From positions 1 to 63,323 of IMG/VR virus record IMGVR_UViG_3300040959_000894: DNA of 63,323 bases; one strand, written 5' to 3'. This DNA comes from a virus. Under the pieces are notes generated by a model. That model saw only the letters and a program-made list of their open reading frames with translations, was not told the origin of the DNA and ran no database searches. Positions 21,745-61,872 of the stretch are shown here, one piece after another. The translations under genes were made by a program, and so were the position numbers. Numbering within the stretch: the stretch's first letter is position 1; the number at the start of each line of letters is the position of its first letter.

Positions 21745-24700
21745 GTTCAAGTCAATGCGAGCTAGGACCGTTACCCTCGGTCATGGTATTCCACAAGCAT
21801 TTCCGATAGGGTTAGATCCAGCACCGTTTGAAGGATCTATTGTATATGCCGACAACGGCACAATGAAGTATTCAAATGGTACTGTATGGCAAGATATGGG
21901 TACAGGACCACAAGGTACTCAAGGATTTACTGGTATTCAAGGTGACCAAGGTTTACAAGGTGATTACGGTCCGGGGTTTACAATCTTAGGATCGGTTGCT
22001 GATGTAGATGCAGGCGGCGATCCACAAGCAACACTTACTGCAGCATTCCCAACACCAAATATCGGCGAAGGTGTAATTGATGAAGCAGATGATGAACTTT
22101 GGATTTGGGATGGAACGAATTGGGTTAACATTGGATCATTCCGTGGTGTTCAAGGTTTCCAAGGTGTTCAAGGTGACCAAGGTTTACAAGGCGACCAAGG
22201 ACAAGAAGGTATTCAAGGCTCACGCGGTTATCGTGGTTTCCAAGGTACACAAGGTTATCAAGGCACACAAGGCGTCCAAGGATTGCAAGGTGTTCAAGGA
22301 CCACAAGGATTGCAAGGTGACCAAGGCGTTCAAGGTCCGCAAGGGTTACAAGGAGTTCAGGGTCCACAAGGCGTTCAAGGTCCGCAGTCGATCCAAGGTA
22401 CAACAGGTATCCAAGGTGACTTAGGTTTTCAAGGTACACAAGGTTGGAATGGTACCGACTCAGGAATGGTCATTGACTATACACTCGGTACAGAAGTAAC
22501 AGATCAAAATCCAACAGGTGGGTCATTTAATACAAACAACACAGTTATTGCAAGTGCTACCAAACTATGGTTTAATAGAGACGATACTTATAATGTAGAT
22601 TTGGTTGACTATTTCCGTGCAATTGATTTATCAACATCGGCAAATAAAGCATATATCAAAATAACTAAACGTGACGAACCAGCATATTATCTTATATTCT
22701 CAGTACAAGAAATTACTGAAAAAGGTACAGATCCATCTAATTATTTTGAATTGGATGTTACATATATCGGCGGTCCTGCTACTCGAGCAAATTGGCAAAC
22801 TGCCGATTTTCCAACTCCAGGTACAACAACATCATATCCATTGGTTGTTGCCCTTGACCAATCAGGTGACCAAGGTGTTCAAGGTTTCCAAGGTACTCAG
22901 GGTTTCCAAGGATTTACTGGTATTCAAGGTTTCCAAGGTTTCCAAGGTCCGCAAGGATTACAGGGTACACAAGGTTACCAAGGTGTTCAAGGCTTCCAAG
23001 GTTTCCAAGGTGAAATCGGTTATAGTGGTGGTCTGACATTTGAGTGGGATTTTAATCCGTCAACAACTGAAGGTTTCCCGGGATTAAACGGTTGGTTACT
23101 TAATAACGCTGATGTTACTCAAGCTGATAAGTTGTATATTGATGACCTCACACATACAGGTCGCCGAGTAGATGGATTGTTTGATTTCCTTCAAACACTT
23201 ACAAGTTCTCCAAAAGGCTCAATCTTTATTAGAACACCAAAGAATGTAGGAAACGGTAATTACGAATTCCTGATCTATAACTTCACAAATTGGACTTGGG
23301 ATGCAGGTCCAACTGACTGGGGACACTTTGATATTACCTATGTTGACCGAAGTACTTTGGGCGGAACTGATCTTTCACCAGGTACAAGTTGGAATACAGG
23401 TGCGGTAGCATCATTCGGTGATACTGCAATTATTGATTTTATCCCATATGGTGATAAAGGTAATCAGGGTACTCAGGGTTTCCAAGGTACAACAGGTATT
23501 CAAGGCGATGAAGGTTTCCAAGGTACACAAGGTTATCAAGGTACACAAGGTGTCCAAGGAGTCCAAGGAACACAAGGTTGGCAAGGTACTCAGGGTTTCC
23601 AAGGATTTACTGGTATTCAAGGTGATGAAGGCTCACAAGGTACTCAAGGCTTCCAAGGAGCACAAGGTACTCAGGGTTTCCAGGGAGATCAAGGAACACA
23701 AGGTTTCCAAGGTTACCAAGGTGTTCAAGGTATGGAAGGCGGCAGAGAATTTGTTGTAACAAACACAGGTTCTACTTCATATGAAGTTGACGGTGTAACA
23801 CAGCCTAACCTACATCTGTTGAGAGGATTTACTTATACATTTGATTTGAATGTATCAGGTCACCCATTTAAAATTAGAACAAGTGCAGGTGGTTCAGATT
23901 ACACTAACGGCATAACAATTGTCGGTAATGATGAAACTGGTAGATTGATATTCAGGGTGCCGTTTAATGCTCCCGCTACTTTAGTTTATCAATGTTCTAT
24001 TCACTCAGGAATGGTTGGGAATATCTTTACATCTGAAGTTGGTCCGCAAGGTACTCAAGGATTGCAAGGTATTCAAGGCACGCAGGGTATTCAAGGATTA
24101 CAAGGAGTTCAAGGTCCACAAGGTACTCAAGGCTGGCAAGGTACACAAGGTTACCAAGGTGTTCAAGGTGATTTAGGTTTCCAAGGTACACAAGGTCCAC
24201 AATCTATCCAAGGTACAACAGGTATTCAAGGTGACTTAGGTCCTGCCGGTGAATTTGGTGGTATGACTCTTGATTATACATTTAGTACCGCAACGGATAC
24301 TTCAGATCCAGGTGTTGGTTTACTTAAATTCAATGCGGCAAACATTGCTTCTGCAACTGAAATGCGTATTGACGACCGAGATGACTCGTTTACCGATGTT
24401 CAAGCATTCTTAAGAACAACAGATGAACCAACAAGTGCTGTAAAAGGTTTCTTTAGGGTTATTGATGGTACAACAACAAGTAACTATGTTGCATTTAGAA
24501 TCAATGATGTTATTGAAAGATCAGGCTTTTTTGAATATGACTGTACTTTCTTAACAGGTTCCGTTACATCATTTGGAAATAATTCTGATGTTAGAATTAC
24601 GTTTGCAAGAACAGGTGATAAAGGTGACACCGGTTTACAAGGTATTCAAGGCCCACAAGGAACTCAAGGTGTACAAGGTGATGAAGGCGGCGTAGGTCTA

Positions 24701-26473
24701 CAAGGTATGCAAGGTCCTCAAGGCCTACAAGGTGATGCTGGTGAAGAAGGCGCTCAAGGTGCTGCAGGTGATGGCAACCAAGGTATTCAAGGCCCACAAG
24801 GTCCGCAAGGTACTACAGGCCAAGATGGTGCTACAGGTGGTGACGGTTTCCAAGGTACACAAGGTTTGCAGGGTACACAAGGTTTCCAAGGTGATCTTGG
24901 TTTCCAAGGTTTCCAAGGTGCAGGCGGTGTTGGTTCAGCAGGTTCGCAAGGTACACAAGGCACCCAAGGTGTTCAAGGTGACCAAGGTGTTCAAGGTGAG
25001 GTAGGTCCCGCAGGATTTGGTGCTCAAGGTATTCAAGGTACACAAGGATTTACTGGTGCTCAAGGTGAAACAGGAACAGGTATTCAGGGTACGCAAGGTC
25101 CACAAGGTATCGGTGCTCAAGGTTCATTAGGTAATGATGGAGCGCAAGGTATCCAAGGTACGCAGGGTATTCAAGGATTTGGTATTCAAGGTACACAAGG
25201 CTTCCAAGGTGTAGATGGACAAGGTGCTGATGGTACACAAGGTGCTCAAGGTTTCCAAGGTCTTCAAGGTACCTCGGGTGAAGAAGGTCAAGGCGGTCTT
25301 CAAGGTACTCAAGGTATTATCGGTGACGATGGTATTCAAGGTCCTGGCGGTGAAGGCAACCAAGGTATTCAAGGTATCCAAGGTGGACCGGGTGTTCAAG
25401 GTGAGGGCGGCGGAGGTGGTTCTCAAGGTATCCAAGGTGTTCAAGGCGTTCAGTCCGTACAAGGTCCACAAGGTCTTAGCGGTGGTGGCGGTACTCAGGG
25501 CCCCCAAGGTTTACAAGGTCCTCCTGGTGATGACGGTCTTCAAGGTTTCACCGGTGCAGGTACCCAAGGTATTCAAGGTATCCAAGGTATCCAAGGTGGA
25601 CCCGGTCCACAAGGTAGTCAAGGTGTTGGGCAAGATGGCCTACAAGGTAACCAAGGCCCGCAAGGTCCACAAGGTTTCATTGGTGCAGATGGTATTCAGG
25701 GTATGCAAGGTATTCAAGGTGATGCCGATGCCCAAGCAATTGAAACAAACGATCTATATGGAACAGCATTACAAGGTTCACCACTATTCCTTACTATGAC
25801 ACAAGCAGGTGGTGGAGCACAACCATTATATGCAACCCTATCACCTAACCCAGGTGGTGAATCAAACTTCTTCTATACAGGTACTGATGACGAATTAACT
25901 GTTGAGAATTTGAATGTTGACGGTAACTTGGTTGTAACAGGTACACTTAACGGTGGATCAGGTGACTTCCTCGAAGCTTCGGTGTCCGATGTAAAAACAG
26001 GCGGTGAATTAAGGTTCCAAAATGACCTTCAAATTGCATTTGGTAGCTCAATTGGCGGTGCACTTTTATATGCATCTGCGGATGCCGAGGTTCAATTAAA
26101 CATGGATGTCGGTATTGATTATACTATAAGAGATAACGGTACATTGAGATTTACGTTTGATATGGGAACTGGTAACTTCACATCAACAGGTGATATTAAC
26201 GCACAATCTGATGTAAGAACAAAAACTAATATTGAAACTATTACCGATGCGCTTAATAAAGTGTTAAGTATGCGCGGTGTTACATATGAGAGAAAAGCTG
26301 AATTAGGTAACGTAAAACTAGGTGTTATTGCTCAAGAGGTTGAAGAAATATTGCCAGAAGTTATTAACACAACTGATGATGGAATGAAAGCCGTTGCTTA
26401 CGGTAACATTGTCGGATTACTTATCGAAGCAATTAAAGATCTCAAAGAGGAAGTTGATAATTTAAATCAATAA
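21734..26473 (+). CDS. Collagen-like tail fibre with cupredoxin-like insert and S74 C-terminus
   Basis: A 1579-aa protein. After a ~55-residue head come blocks of collagen triplets, mostly G-x-Q (GTQGFQG, GVQGDQG), at about residues 57-80, 135-245, 375-430, 570-670, 768-840 and 960-1330. Between blocks are three related ~125-aa beta domains (near 245-375, 430-570, 840-960). One ~95-aa domain at 670-765 has a cupredoxin-like pattern, with His710, Cys754, His757 and Met760 as candidate type-1 copper ligands. The last 88 residues are an S74 chaperone with Ser1492 and Lys1497 (SDVRTKTNI) and IVGLLIEAIKDLKEEV. The start follows a GGAGG RBS inside the upstream gene. It likely forms a trimeric triple-helix fibre. 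The frame stays open despite heavy repeats. Confidence 0.85.
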   Translation: MSTRFKSMRARTVTLGHGIPQAFPIGLDPAPFEGSIVYADNGTMKYSNGTVWQDMGTGPQGTQGFTGIQGDQGLQGDYGPGFTILGSVADVDAGGDPQATLTAAFPTPNIGEGVIDEADDELWIWDGTNWVNIGSFRGVQGFQGVQGDQGLQGDQGQEGIQGSRGYRGFQGTQGYQGTQGVQGLQGVQGPQGLQGDQGVQGPQGLQGVQGPQGVQGPQSIQGTTGIQGDLGFQGTQGWNGTDSGMVIDYTLGTEVTDQNPTGGSFNTNNTVIASATKLWFNRDDTYNVDLVDYFRAIDLSTSANKAYIKITKRDEPAYYLIFSVQEITEKGTDPSNYFELDVTYIGGPATRANWQTADFPTPGTTTSYPLVVALDQSGDQGVQGFQGTQGFQGFTGIQGFQGFQGPQGLQGTQGYQGVQGFQGFQGEIGYSGGLTFEWDFNPSTTEGFPGLNGWLLNNADVTQADKLYIDDLTHTGRRVDGLFDFLQTLTSSPKGSIFIRTPKNVGNGNYEFLIYNFTNWTWDAGPTDWGHFDITYVDRSTLGGTDLSPGTSWNTGAVASFGDTAIIDFIPYGDKGNQGTQGFQGTTGIQGDEGFQGTQGYQGTQGVQGVQGTQGWQGTQGFQGFTGIQGDEGSQGTQGFQGAQGTQGFQGDQGTQGFQGYQGVQGMEGGREFVVTNTGSTSYEVDGVTQPNLHLLRGFTYTFDLNVSGHPFKIRTSAGGSDYTNGITIVGNDETGRLIFRVPFNAPATLVYQCSIHSGMVGNIFTSEVGPQGTQGLQGIQGTQGIQGLQGVQGPQGTQGWQGTQGYQGVQGDLGFQGTQGPQSIQGTTGIQGDLGPAGEFGGMTLDYTFSTATDTSDPGVGLLKFNAANIASATEMRIDDRDDSFTDVQAFLRTTDEPTSAVKGFFRVIDGTTTSNYVAFRINDVIERSGFFEYDCTFLTGSVTSFGNNSDVRITFARTGDKGDTGLQGIQGPQGTQGVQGDEGGVGLQGMQGPQGLQGDAGEEGAQGAAGDGNQGIQGPQGPQGTTGQDGATGGDGFQGTQGLQGTQGFQGDLGFQGFQGAGGVGSAGSQGTQGTQGVQGDQGVQGEVGPAGFGAQGIQGTQGFTGAQGETGTGIQGTQGPQGIGAQGSLGNDGAQGIQGTQGIQGFGIQGTQGFQGVDGQGADGTQGAQGFQGLQGTSGEEGQGGLQGTQGIIGDDGIQGPGGEGNQGIQGIQGGPGVQGEGGGGGSQGIQGVQGVQSVQGPQGLSGGGGTQGPQGLQGPPGDDGLQGFTGAGTQGIQGIQGIQGGPGPQGSQGVGQDGLQGNQGPQGPQGFIGADGIQGMQGIQGDADAQAIETNDLYGTALQGSPLFLTMTQAGGGAQPLYATLSPNPGGESNFFYTGTDDELTVENLNVDGNLVVTGTLNGGSGDFLEASVSDVKTGGELRFQNDLQIAFGSSIGGALLYASADAEVQLNMDVGIDYTIRDNGTLRFTFDMGTGNFTSTGDINAQSDVRTKTNIETITDALNKVLSMRGVTYERKAELGNVKLGVIAQEVEEILPEVINTTDDGMKAVAYGNIVGLLIEAIKDLKEEVDNLNQ
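22137..22445 (+). repeat. Collagen-like G-x-Q triplet block
   Basis: A 9-base-period coding repeat built on caaggt/acaaggt units, encoding G-x-Q triplets. Synonymous changes between units show that the repeat is kept at protein level. Confidence 0.85.
23452..23742 (+). repeat. Collagen-like G-x-Q triplet block before the cupredoxin-like domain
   Basis: Triplets GTQGFQG, GTTGIQG and GVQGTQG run uninterrupted up to the start of the cupredoxin-like domain; the triplet register resumes after it near 24040. Confidence 0.85.
24613..25722 (+). repeat. Longest collagen-like block (~370 residues)
   Basis: The longest run of Gly-x-y triplets. It mixes GTQGxQG with more classical triplets including GPPGDDG and several Gly-rich interruptions (GEGGGGGSQG), giving possible flexible points before the C-terminal region. 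Confidence 0.85.
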
Positions 26474-60543: not shown

Positions 60544-61872
60544 ATGACTCAGTCAAACTATCAAGCGCTTGTGGAGAAGTGGGGCCCAATTCTTGAGCAC
60601 GATTCTTTTTCACCAATCGCCGATCAGCACAAGAAAAGCGTAACCGCTACAATTCTTGAAAACACAGAAAAGGCTCTTATGGAGTCAGGCGACACACAAG
60701 TGGGCATGAGCTCCTTGTTGTCAGAAGCCGCACCAACCAATGCTGCAGGTTCCTCACCTGGGGCAGGTTTCAGTTCAGGCGCAACTGCAGCAGGTCCTGT
60801 TGCAGGTTACGATCCTATCCTGATTTCATTGGTACGCCGTGCTATGCCAAACTTGATGGCATATGACATTGCTGGTGTTCAACCTATGACAGGCCCAACA
60901 GGCTTGATCTTCGCAATGCGTTCGCATTACACCAGCCAATCTGGTGACGAAGCATTCTACAACGAAGCAGCAACAGGCTTCTCAGGTGCTGGCGCATCTG
61001 CAGGTGTTGTTGGTAACGCTGCAACTGCTAATACTGGTACAGGTATGACAACAGCAGCAGCTGAAGCATTGGGCGACGGTGTAGGTGCAGGATTTGCTGA
61101 AATGGCATTCTCAATCGAGAAAGTTGCCGTAACTGCAAAATCACGCGCATTGAAAGCAGAATACACAACAGAACTTGCTCAGGATCTTAAAGCCGTACAC
61201 GGTTTGGATGCTGAAACAGAGCTGGCAAACATTCTGCAATCAGAAATCTTGGTCGAAATCAACCGTGAATTGGTTCGTACAATTTACACAACTGCTAAAG
61301 CAGGTGCAACTGCAACAGCAACTCCTGGTACATTCGATCTTGACGTTGATGCAAACGGACGTTGGTCTGTTGAGAAGTTCAAGGGCTTGATGTTCCAAAT
61401 TGAACAAGAAGCAAACGCAATCGCAAAAGGTACACGTCGTGGTAAAGGTAACATGGTTATCTGTTCTTCTGATGTTGCATCAGCATTGCAAATGGCCGGT
61501 GTACTCGACTACACACCAGCACTTAACAGCAACAACTTGGCAGTTGATGATACAGGCAACACATTCGCCGGTGTTCTTAACGGTCGTTACAGAGTGTATA
61601 TTGACCCATATGCAGGCAGCAACTATTTGGTTGTCGGTTATAAAGGTTCAAGTGCATTTGATGCTGGCTTGTTCTATTGCCCATACGTACCGCTACAAAT
61701 GGTTCGTGCCGTTGGTGAAAACAGCTTCCAACCAAAAATCGGGTTTAAGACTCGCTACGGTATGGTTGCTAACCCATATGCTGAAGGTGACCACGACTCA
61801 CAAGGTCTTGGTGCTCTTACAGCAAACACCAACTTGTACTACCGCCGTGTATTGGTATCTAACTTGTTCTAA
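60544..61872 (+). CDS. gp23: Major capsid protein gp23
   Basis: A 442-aa precursor (T4: 521). The N-terminus carries V-E-K-W-G-P-I-L-E-H-D and A-T-I-L-E-N-T-E, the delta/scaffold-binding part of T4-like gp23. A likely gp21 cleavage site follows Glu61 in S-L-L-S-E-A-A-P, close to T4's Glu65. The mature part contains L-V-R-R-A-M-P-N-L-M-A-Y-D-I-A-G-V-Q-P-M, L-I-F-A-M-R-S, T-V-Y-I-D-P-Y-like R-V-Y-I-D-P-Y-A, F-Y-C-P-Y-V-P-L and F-K-T-R-Y-G-M. It forms the hexameric capsid lattice. No separate gp24 is seen; a terminator closes the unit. Excellent RBS CAAGGAGATAG. Confidence 0.95.
   Translation: MTQSNYQALVEKWGPILEHDSFSPIADQHKKSVTATILENTEKALMESGDTQVGMSSLLSEAAPTNAAGSSPGAGFSSGATAAGPVAGYDPILISLVRRAMPNLMAYDIAGVQPMTGPTGLIFAMRSHYTSQSGDEAFYNEAATGFSGAGASAGVVGNAATANTGTGMTTAAAEALGDGVGAGFAEMAFSIEKVAVTAKSRALKAEYTTELAQDLKAVHGLDAETELANILQSEILVEINRELVRTIYTTAKAGATATATPGTFDLDVDANGRWSVEKFKGLMFQIEQEANAIAKGTRRGKGNMVICSSDVASALQMAGVLDYTPALNSNNLAVDDTGNTFAGVLNGRYRVYIDPYAGSNYLVVGYKGSSAFDAGLFYCPYVPLQMVRAVGENSFQPKIGFKTRYGMVANPYAEGDHDSQGLGALTANTNLYYRRVLVSNLF

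Follow-up and report, generated by a model that had tools for sequence, protein, structure and literature searches.

A collagen-like tail fibre in the phage sequence analysed here carries, between two of its collagen blocks, a domain whose predicted structure is almost certainly that of a cupredoxin. In this modelled fold, His710, Cys754, His757 and Met760 appear to constitute a complete mononuclear type-1 ligand set, and the same domain is a recurrent module of phage tail and baseplate proteins. Cupredoxins are well known. Among the matches listed from the open-licence PMC literature, which was covered in extracts, we met neither a description of a cupredoxin in a phage tail nor one of a conserved type-1 copper site in virion fibres or baseplates. 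The sequence, a phage record, is 63,323 bases long and is hereafter called the window. The phage carrying the fibre is T4-like; its major capsid protein (window positions 60544-61872) is nearest to that of Sinorhizobium phage phiN3 (66.7%), and a stretch of the capsid gene shares 74% DNA identity with Pelagibacter phage Mosig. The capsid proteins closest to it, those of the Sinorhizobium phages phiN3, phiM19, phiM7 and phiM12 (66-67%), are not from cyanophages.

A predicted cupredoxin domain in a collagen-like fibre

The fibre of 1579 residues has several globular inserts among its collagen G-x-y blocks and an S74 chaperone in its C-terminal part (Table 1), and thus combines the G-x-y repeats and the C-terminal folding chaperone of collagen-like phage fibres, both detected by Pfam. 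The original prediction placed a cupredoxin-like domain between two collagen blocks of this protein, and residues 672-769 indeed form a separate domain at that place.

Table 1. Features of the fibre gene, with positions in the window
Feature	Position	Strand	Basis
Collagen-like tail fibre gene, 1579 aa	21734..26473	+	ORF; Pfam Collagen 2.4e-81, Peptidase_S74 1.1e-14; PHROG tail fibre families
Sister globular insert 1, not cupredoxin	22460..22864	+	like insert 3, pairwise BLASTP 1.4e-13
Sister globular insert 2, not cupredoxin	23036..23449	+	like insert 3, pairwise BLASTP 4e-5
Collagen block upstream of cupredoxin domain, residues 573-671	23450..23746	+	G-x-y periodicity
Predicted cupredoxin domain, residues 672-769	23747..24040	+	AlphaFold2, Foldseek, VIA-align; phrog_677 C-terminal part, E 3.2e-28
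His710, proposed first metal ligand	23861..23863	+	103/103 non-redundant copies
Cys754, proposed thiolate ligand, only Cys of the domain	23993..23995	+	103/103
His757, proposed second His ligand	24002..24004	+	103/103
Met760, proposed axial ligand	24011..24013	+	103/103
Collagen block downstream of cupredoxin domain, residues 770-823	24041..24202	+	G-x-y periodicity
Sister globular insert 3, control	24266..24613	+	AlphaFold2 pLDDT 97.0
C-terminal S74 intramolecular chaperone, residues 1492-1543	26207..26362	+	Pfam PF13884

For structure prediction by AlphaFold2, the window domain was aligned with 86 relatives from viral and bacterial contigs (alignment A4, 87 rows). The resulting model has nine strands, with a mean pLDDT of 96.9 and a pTM of 0.88. 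Foldseek returned 1627 PDB matches at E ≤ 10, 74 of them at E ≤ 0.001, with rusticyanin (2.4e-5) and AcoP in the lead; among the 50 matches listed, 49 are cupredoxin-fold proteins by title, and the odd one, 3cvd, has no molecule named in its title. In VIA-align 2, a Hyphomicrobium nitrite reductase gave the best match to the model through its residues 25-134 (Z 10.7, rmsd 2.0 over 90 residues), and rusticyanin reached a Z of 10.1. The model thus agrees with the fold first proposed, and a non-cupredoxin outcome was not seen.

Sequence profiles led to the same superfamily. At E ≤ 10 the family profile matched 42 PDB sequences (best E 2.1e-4), every one of which is, going by its name, a copper protein with the cupredoxin fold, and a smaller profile of nine rows matched 22 cupredoxins and one cystatin. 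Cupredoxins were reached only via such profiles and from some relatives' own sequences, not from the window sequence by itself: the single sequence was uninformative against the PDB (best E 0.21, to fluorescent proteins), and the domain matched no Pfam or NCBIfam model at E ≤ 1. The plastocyanin/azurin model PF00127 matched neither the window protein nor its domain, and detected 27 of the 87 aligned copies at E ≤ 1 (best 2.2e-5). Likewise, the amicyanin model TIGR02657, whose cut-off was not reached, gave no match to the window domain at E ≤ 1 and detected 32 of the 87 copies at that threshold (best 1.2e-5). Another model, PF25489 (At5g54830-like domain), matched 47 of the 87 copies at E ≤ 1 (best 6.9e-6).

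The fibre offers a control of its own, since the cupredoxin domain shares it with three related inserts of about 116-138 aa each. The sister insert occurs in 47 copies in related fibres after removal of near-duplicates (three of them from one near-identical contig), and insert 3 was folded from 40 of these plus the window's own copy and handled in the same way as the cupredoxin domain. The predicted beta-sandwich of the latter finds its matches within the cupredoxin superfamily, and the control gave no such matches: its model had no PDB match by Foldseek at E ≤ 0.001 and a best VIA-align Z of 6.0, and its sequence profile matched a single PDB entry, an O-GlcNAcase (E 0.002). As modelled, the sister insert is possibly an undescribed fibre domain, albeit the absence of a match to a known fold does not make its fold new.

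Three entries of BFVD (A0A481Z7Q7, A0A481Z6J5 and A0A481YXP1) also match the cupredoxin model, with E of 3.5e-7 or better. They belong to Pithovirus LCPAC and Marseillevirus LCMAC records, two being named beta-sandwich protein, and the domain may therefore be present in giant viruses as well, judging from the models.

The putative metal site

The residue numbers originally given for the four ligands proved exact, as did the distance of 44 residues from His710 to Cys754. To describe their conservation we use a non-redundant set of 103 copies, window included, made with an 80% identity cut and at least 80 filled columns. In this set the four ligand columns (H, C, H and M) have zero entropy, and no other well-filled column does; all near-full-length rows, redundant ones included, keep the four residues as well (203/203). 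All 103 non-redundant copies have the C-x2-H-x2-M spacing, the first His precedes the Cys by 41-50 residues in 100 copies and by 66-67 in three, and an earlier, smaller profile retained the His in 103 of 104 copies (one W) and each of the other three ligands in 103 of 103, copies with fewer than 60 filled columns having been left out of the spacing counts and of these earlier ones. Because the four residues had been named beforehand and are alone among the well-filled columns in having zero entropy, the pattern goes beyond chance. In the control family (A5), only a Lys column is invariant, and a Pro column comes close.

The bacterial scan and one of the two viral patterns used the ligand letters, so that only the viral loci collected with the ligand-free pattern (the best 80 of 538 relatives; for the other pattern, the best 80 of 526) form a set without search bias. 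Their 45 non-redundant domains have the first His in 45 of 45 and the other three ligands in 44 of 44, one row being gapped. Furthermore, summed profile values indicate that loss of all four ligands would cost about 25 bits, against the 100-150 bits that most near-full-length domains of the viral loci score; ligand losses in ordinary members would thus have shown, and the detection bias is small.

It might be argued that the cupredoxin fold is a relic kept for its shape, the ligands being chance leftovers. A few divergent, partly matched paralogues have in fact lost ligands: L165 (3715-4575) has Ser, Ser and Arg, L166 (759-3740) has Lys for Met and L185 (418-6300) has Gln for Met. These are possible natural metal-free or altered versions, as far as their sequences tell. 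In total, 31 of 234 rows depart from H-C-H-M; each of them is a partial or split match that fills fewer than 80 columns, and eight split pairs among them still display H and C-H-M. Nevertheless, near-full-length members conserve no position as strongly as the ligands, which do not vary among them, and the persistence of the ligands supports the earlier argument against a dead fold. The sequences have largely refuted the relic reading, which we regard as extremely improbable.

The first His deserves separate attention. Profile-profile alignments placed His710 on the canonical His in four of five comparison sets (plastocyanin, rusticyanin-like, pseudoazurin-like and mixed), without gaps in the pseudoazurin-like one; in the amicyanin-like set the first His lay one position off, and the local alignment does not cover it. 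As the five sets overlap and the plastocyanin set, whose sequences are almost identical, gave low probabilities (62.6 local, 14.2 global), this register is support rather than proof. The shifted first His seen with HMMER (amicyanin and plastocyanin) was set aside: pairing Pro with Pro puts the His two positions early. We prefer the His-on-His register, since the role of a ligand best accounts for an invariant His at this position. In 102 of 103 copies the next residue is Pro, which on sequence grounds we take for a hallmark of the phage domain family; the His is followed by Asn in 12 of 12 plastocyanin and 3 of 3 pseudoazurin-like loci, and by other residues in other cupredoxins.

From the fold and the alignment, we infer that the four side chains would meet at a single site of the folded domain, with His…Cys-x2-His-x2-Met conserved as in type-1 copper proteins. 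Amicyanin, pseudoazurin, plastocyanin and rusticyanin share the cupredoxin beta-sandwich and the same order of His, Cys, His and Met with the phage domain. The Cx2Hx2M loop, originally presented as the spacing of amicyanin, is present here and in amicyanin; it is not specific to that protein, as a copper nitrite reductase (9cck) has it too. Unlike these small blue copper proteins, the phage domain is embedded in a virion fibre whose N-terminus shows no export signal by eye, and has Pro after the first His, a variable residue before the second His and no matching Pfam or NCBIfam model in the case of the window.

Metal binding by the predicted site is strongly implied, and we consider it very likely that the site is maintained for this purpose. 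In 86 of the 87 aligned domains the Cys is the only one, which leaves no internal disulphide in those. Two His, one Cys and an invariant Met are the ligands of a copper site, and Met as the fourth ligand favours copper over zinc. Copper is thus probably the metal bound. Alternatively, the site may hold a different soft metal, such as zinc taken up in the cytoplasm, or the Cys may serve on its own without metal. Assembly of phage proteins takes place in the cytoplasm, where cells keep free copper scarce, and the Pro after the first His sets the domain apart from the plastocyanin and pseudoazurin-like loci, both of which suit such an alternative. We nonetheless think it unlikely, as an invariant axial Met and an exact Cx2Hx2M in 103 of 103 copies would be hard to explain.

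Distribution and context of the domain

Three tblastn queries against 50,697 phage records detected the domain in 354 (E ≤ 0.01), 349 and 356 (both E ≤ 0.001) records, some phages being counted twice as GenBank and RefSeq copies. The organism names of 344, 341 and 345 of these records begin with Synechococcus, Prochlorococcus or Cyanophage; among the others are one or two records of Pelagibacter phages and one of an Actinomycetia phage. Syn9, S-SSM5 and P-SSM2 are examples of phages with the domain in tail or baseplate genes. As relatives of the window capsid protein occur in 2,503 phage records, the domain is confined, at this sensitivity, to a part of these phages.

The domain was annotated in 27 of 40 evenly sampled records as part of a baseplate wedge tail fibre connector, and it forms the end of the protein in five of the first eight isolate phages examined (L005-L012). 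Its counterpart in PHROG is phrog_677, the gp9-like baseplate wedge tail fibre connector of cyanophages, whose C-terminal 100 residues are the cupredoxin domain and which matches all 87 aligned copies. The gp9 of S-SSM5, the sole gp9-like protein tested, has T4_gp9_10_N at its N-terminus (E 7.2e-9). By contrast, a Pfam search found no T4_gp9_10_N (PF07880) in the window fibre, where the domain instead sits between collagen blocks. Among 98 non-redundant viral copies, collagen flanks the domain on both sides in 36 and on the N side only in 3, 20 copies form the protein end and 39 lie elsewhere inside the protein. On a tree of 95 copies, with 12 of 92 inner branches well supported, the 29 collagen-inserted copies, including that of the window, require two changes only. 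This architecture thus looks mostly inherited, as far as a poorly resolved tree can tell. Three near-identical contigs aside, the window domain shares 61-63% identity with its nearest relative.

A large protein (L012 3250-6216) encoded beside a gp9-like gene carries a second, divergent copy in which the ligand motifs recur, together with a YHYH domain (PF14240), and similar genes are found in L161, L162 and L139.

The bacterial scan yielded 15 loci from Bacteroidota, Alphaproteobacteria and others, some with lipoprotein-like N-termini by eye. Three Bacteroidota proteins (L172, L175 and L177) have CHRD or four to six DUF7282 domains and end in the same cupredoxin domain; they are cellular proteins with a lipoprotein-like N-terminus by eye, unlike the phage fibre. 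A common picocyanobacterial gene was considered as a host origin and rejected, as 8 of 151 genomes in one family sample match. The strong match among these (2.8e-28) is to the centre genome of the sample, Prochlorococcus AG-418-C09, which had been reached through the domain itself, and the matches in 7 of the 150 other genomes of that family are all weak (4.5e-9 to 6.7e-4). Plastocyanin exceeded the cut-off in 24 of 31 genomes in a sample of the same genus.

Possible roles of a putative copper site in the virion

Receptor binding, fibre stabilisation and redox sensing were raised as possible roles in the original prediction. The overall explanation that we put forward, and rate at slightly better than an even chance, is a copper-loaded, locked and exposed cupredoxin module of structural or adhesive use. 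Each copy of the domain would bind one copper ion. Phage proteins are made in the host cytoplasm and no export signal is apparent by eye, so the copper would probably be taken up outside the cell, after lysis. In the assembled fibre, the metal would lock the loops of the exposed beta-sandwich between the two collagen blocks, and the use would be both mechanical and adhesive, a rigid module presenting a variable face near the metal site to the host surface. Adhesion is suggested by context, namely by copies that are flanked by collagen or end the protein, one of them with a T4 gp9/10 N-terminal domain. Whether the role is adhesive or structural rather than redox we regard as evenly balanced.

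The residues beside the second His bear on this choice. The one preceding it is among the most variable of the domain (entropy 3.04 bits), its other neighbours vary among mostly small residues, and the 103 copies show no conserved patch beside it. Such variability would suit a site of structural use alone or a contact surface that differs between hosts, and for this reason we favour a structural or adhesive module over electron transfer. In the latter case, Cu(II)/Cu(I) cycling would make the domain an electron carrier, or the trigger of a rearrangement of baseplate or fibre on host contact. It is true that the ligand set is that of electron-transfer proteins, that the axial Met is invariant and that copies terminate proteins annotated as baseplate connectors. 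Nevertheless, the variable residues beside the second His disfavour a common redox partner, and in nine annotated neighbourhoods the domain gene has no electron carrier next to it; the nearest label there, CcmH/NrfG in S-SCSM2R, belongs to a protein about 3 kb off on the opposite strand. We therefore hold a redox role to be quite unlikely.

Metal in phage fibres is not without precedent. Iron at HxH sites is reported in phage tail fibres, T4 gp37 and Alteromonas phage R22Y among them, and it has been hypothesised that this iron is recognised by siderophore receptors (PMC11705849, in extract). These are likewise metal sites in a phage fibre, and differ from the phage cupredoxin in their ligands, using histidines and iron (the same source, in extract). 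It is attractive to speculate on a copper analogue of such iron-loaded tails, in which copper-loaded virions would act as a Trojan horse, docking on copper-acquisition or other metal-binding proteins of the host surface. The ligand set fits copper, the domain family is found mainly in Synechococcus and Prochlorococcus phages, and the iron hypothesis provides a published model for fibres and receptors (PMC11705849, in extract). On the other hand, no host receptor emerged from this analysis, and the residues around the site are variable, whereas a receptor in common would tend to keep that face constant. Docking of this kind is thus an unlikely alternative to the locked, exposed module preferred here.

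If the site holds copper, many T4-like cyanophages would be metalloprotein particles, and the domain would be a copper counterpart to the hypothesis of iron in tail fibres. Copper is both needed by and toxic to picocyanobacteria, and phage attachment would then be linked to this trace metal. A broader and rather doubtful proposition is that aquatic phages, above all cyanophages, carry working copper centres in fibres and baseplates, several ions per virion being bound after release and used for attachment or for a redox- or metal-triggered switch, and that virions make up an unrecognised pool of copper ligands in aquatic environments.

A further implication concerns annotation, as a plastocyanin-like match in a phage genome may point to a fibre domain and not to a photosynthesis gene. 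This seems to be so in one record: the 168-aa gene annotated PetE in Synechococcus phage S-SCSM2R (L237 3294-3800) encodes the cupredoxin domain behind an N-terminus that looks fibre-like by eye, and is for that reason probably not plastocyanin.
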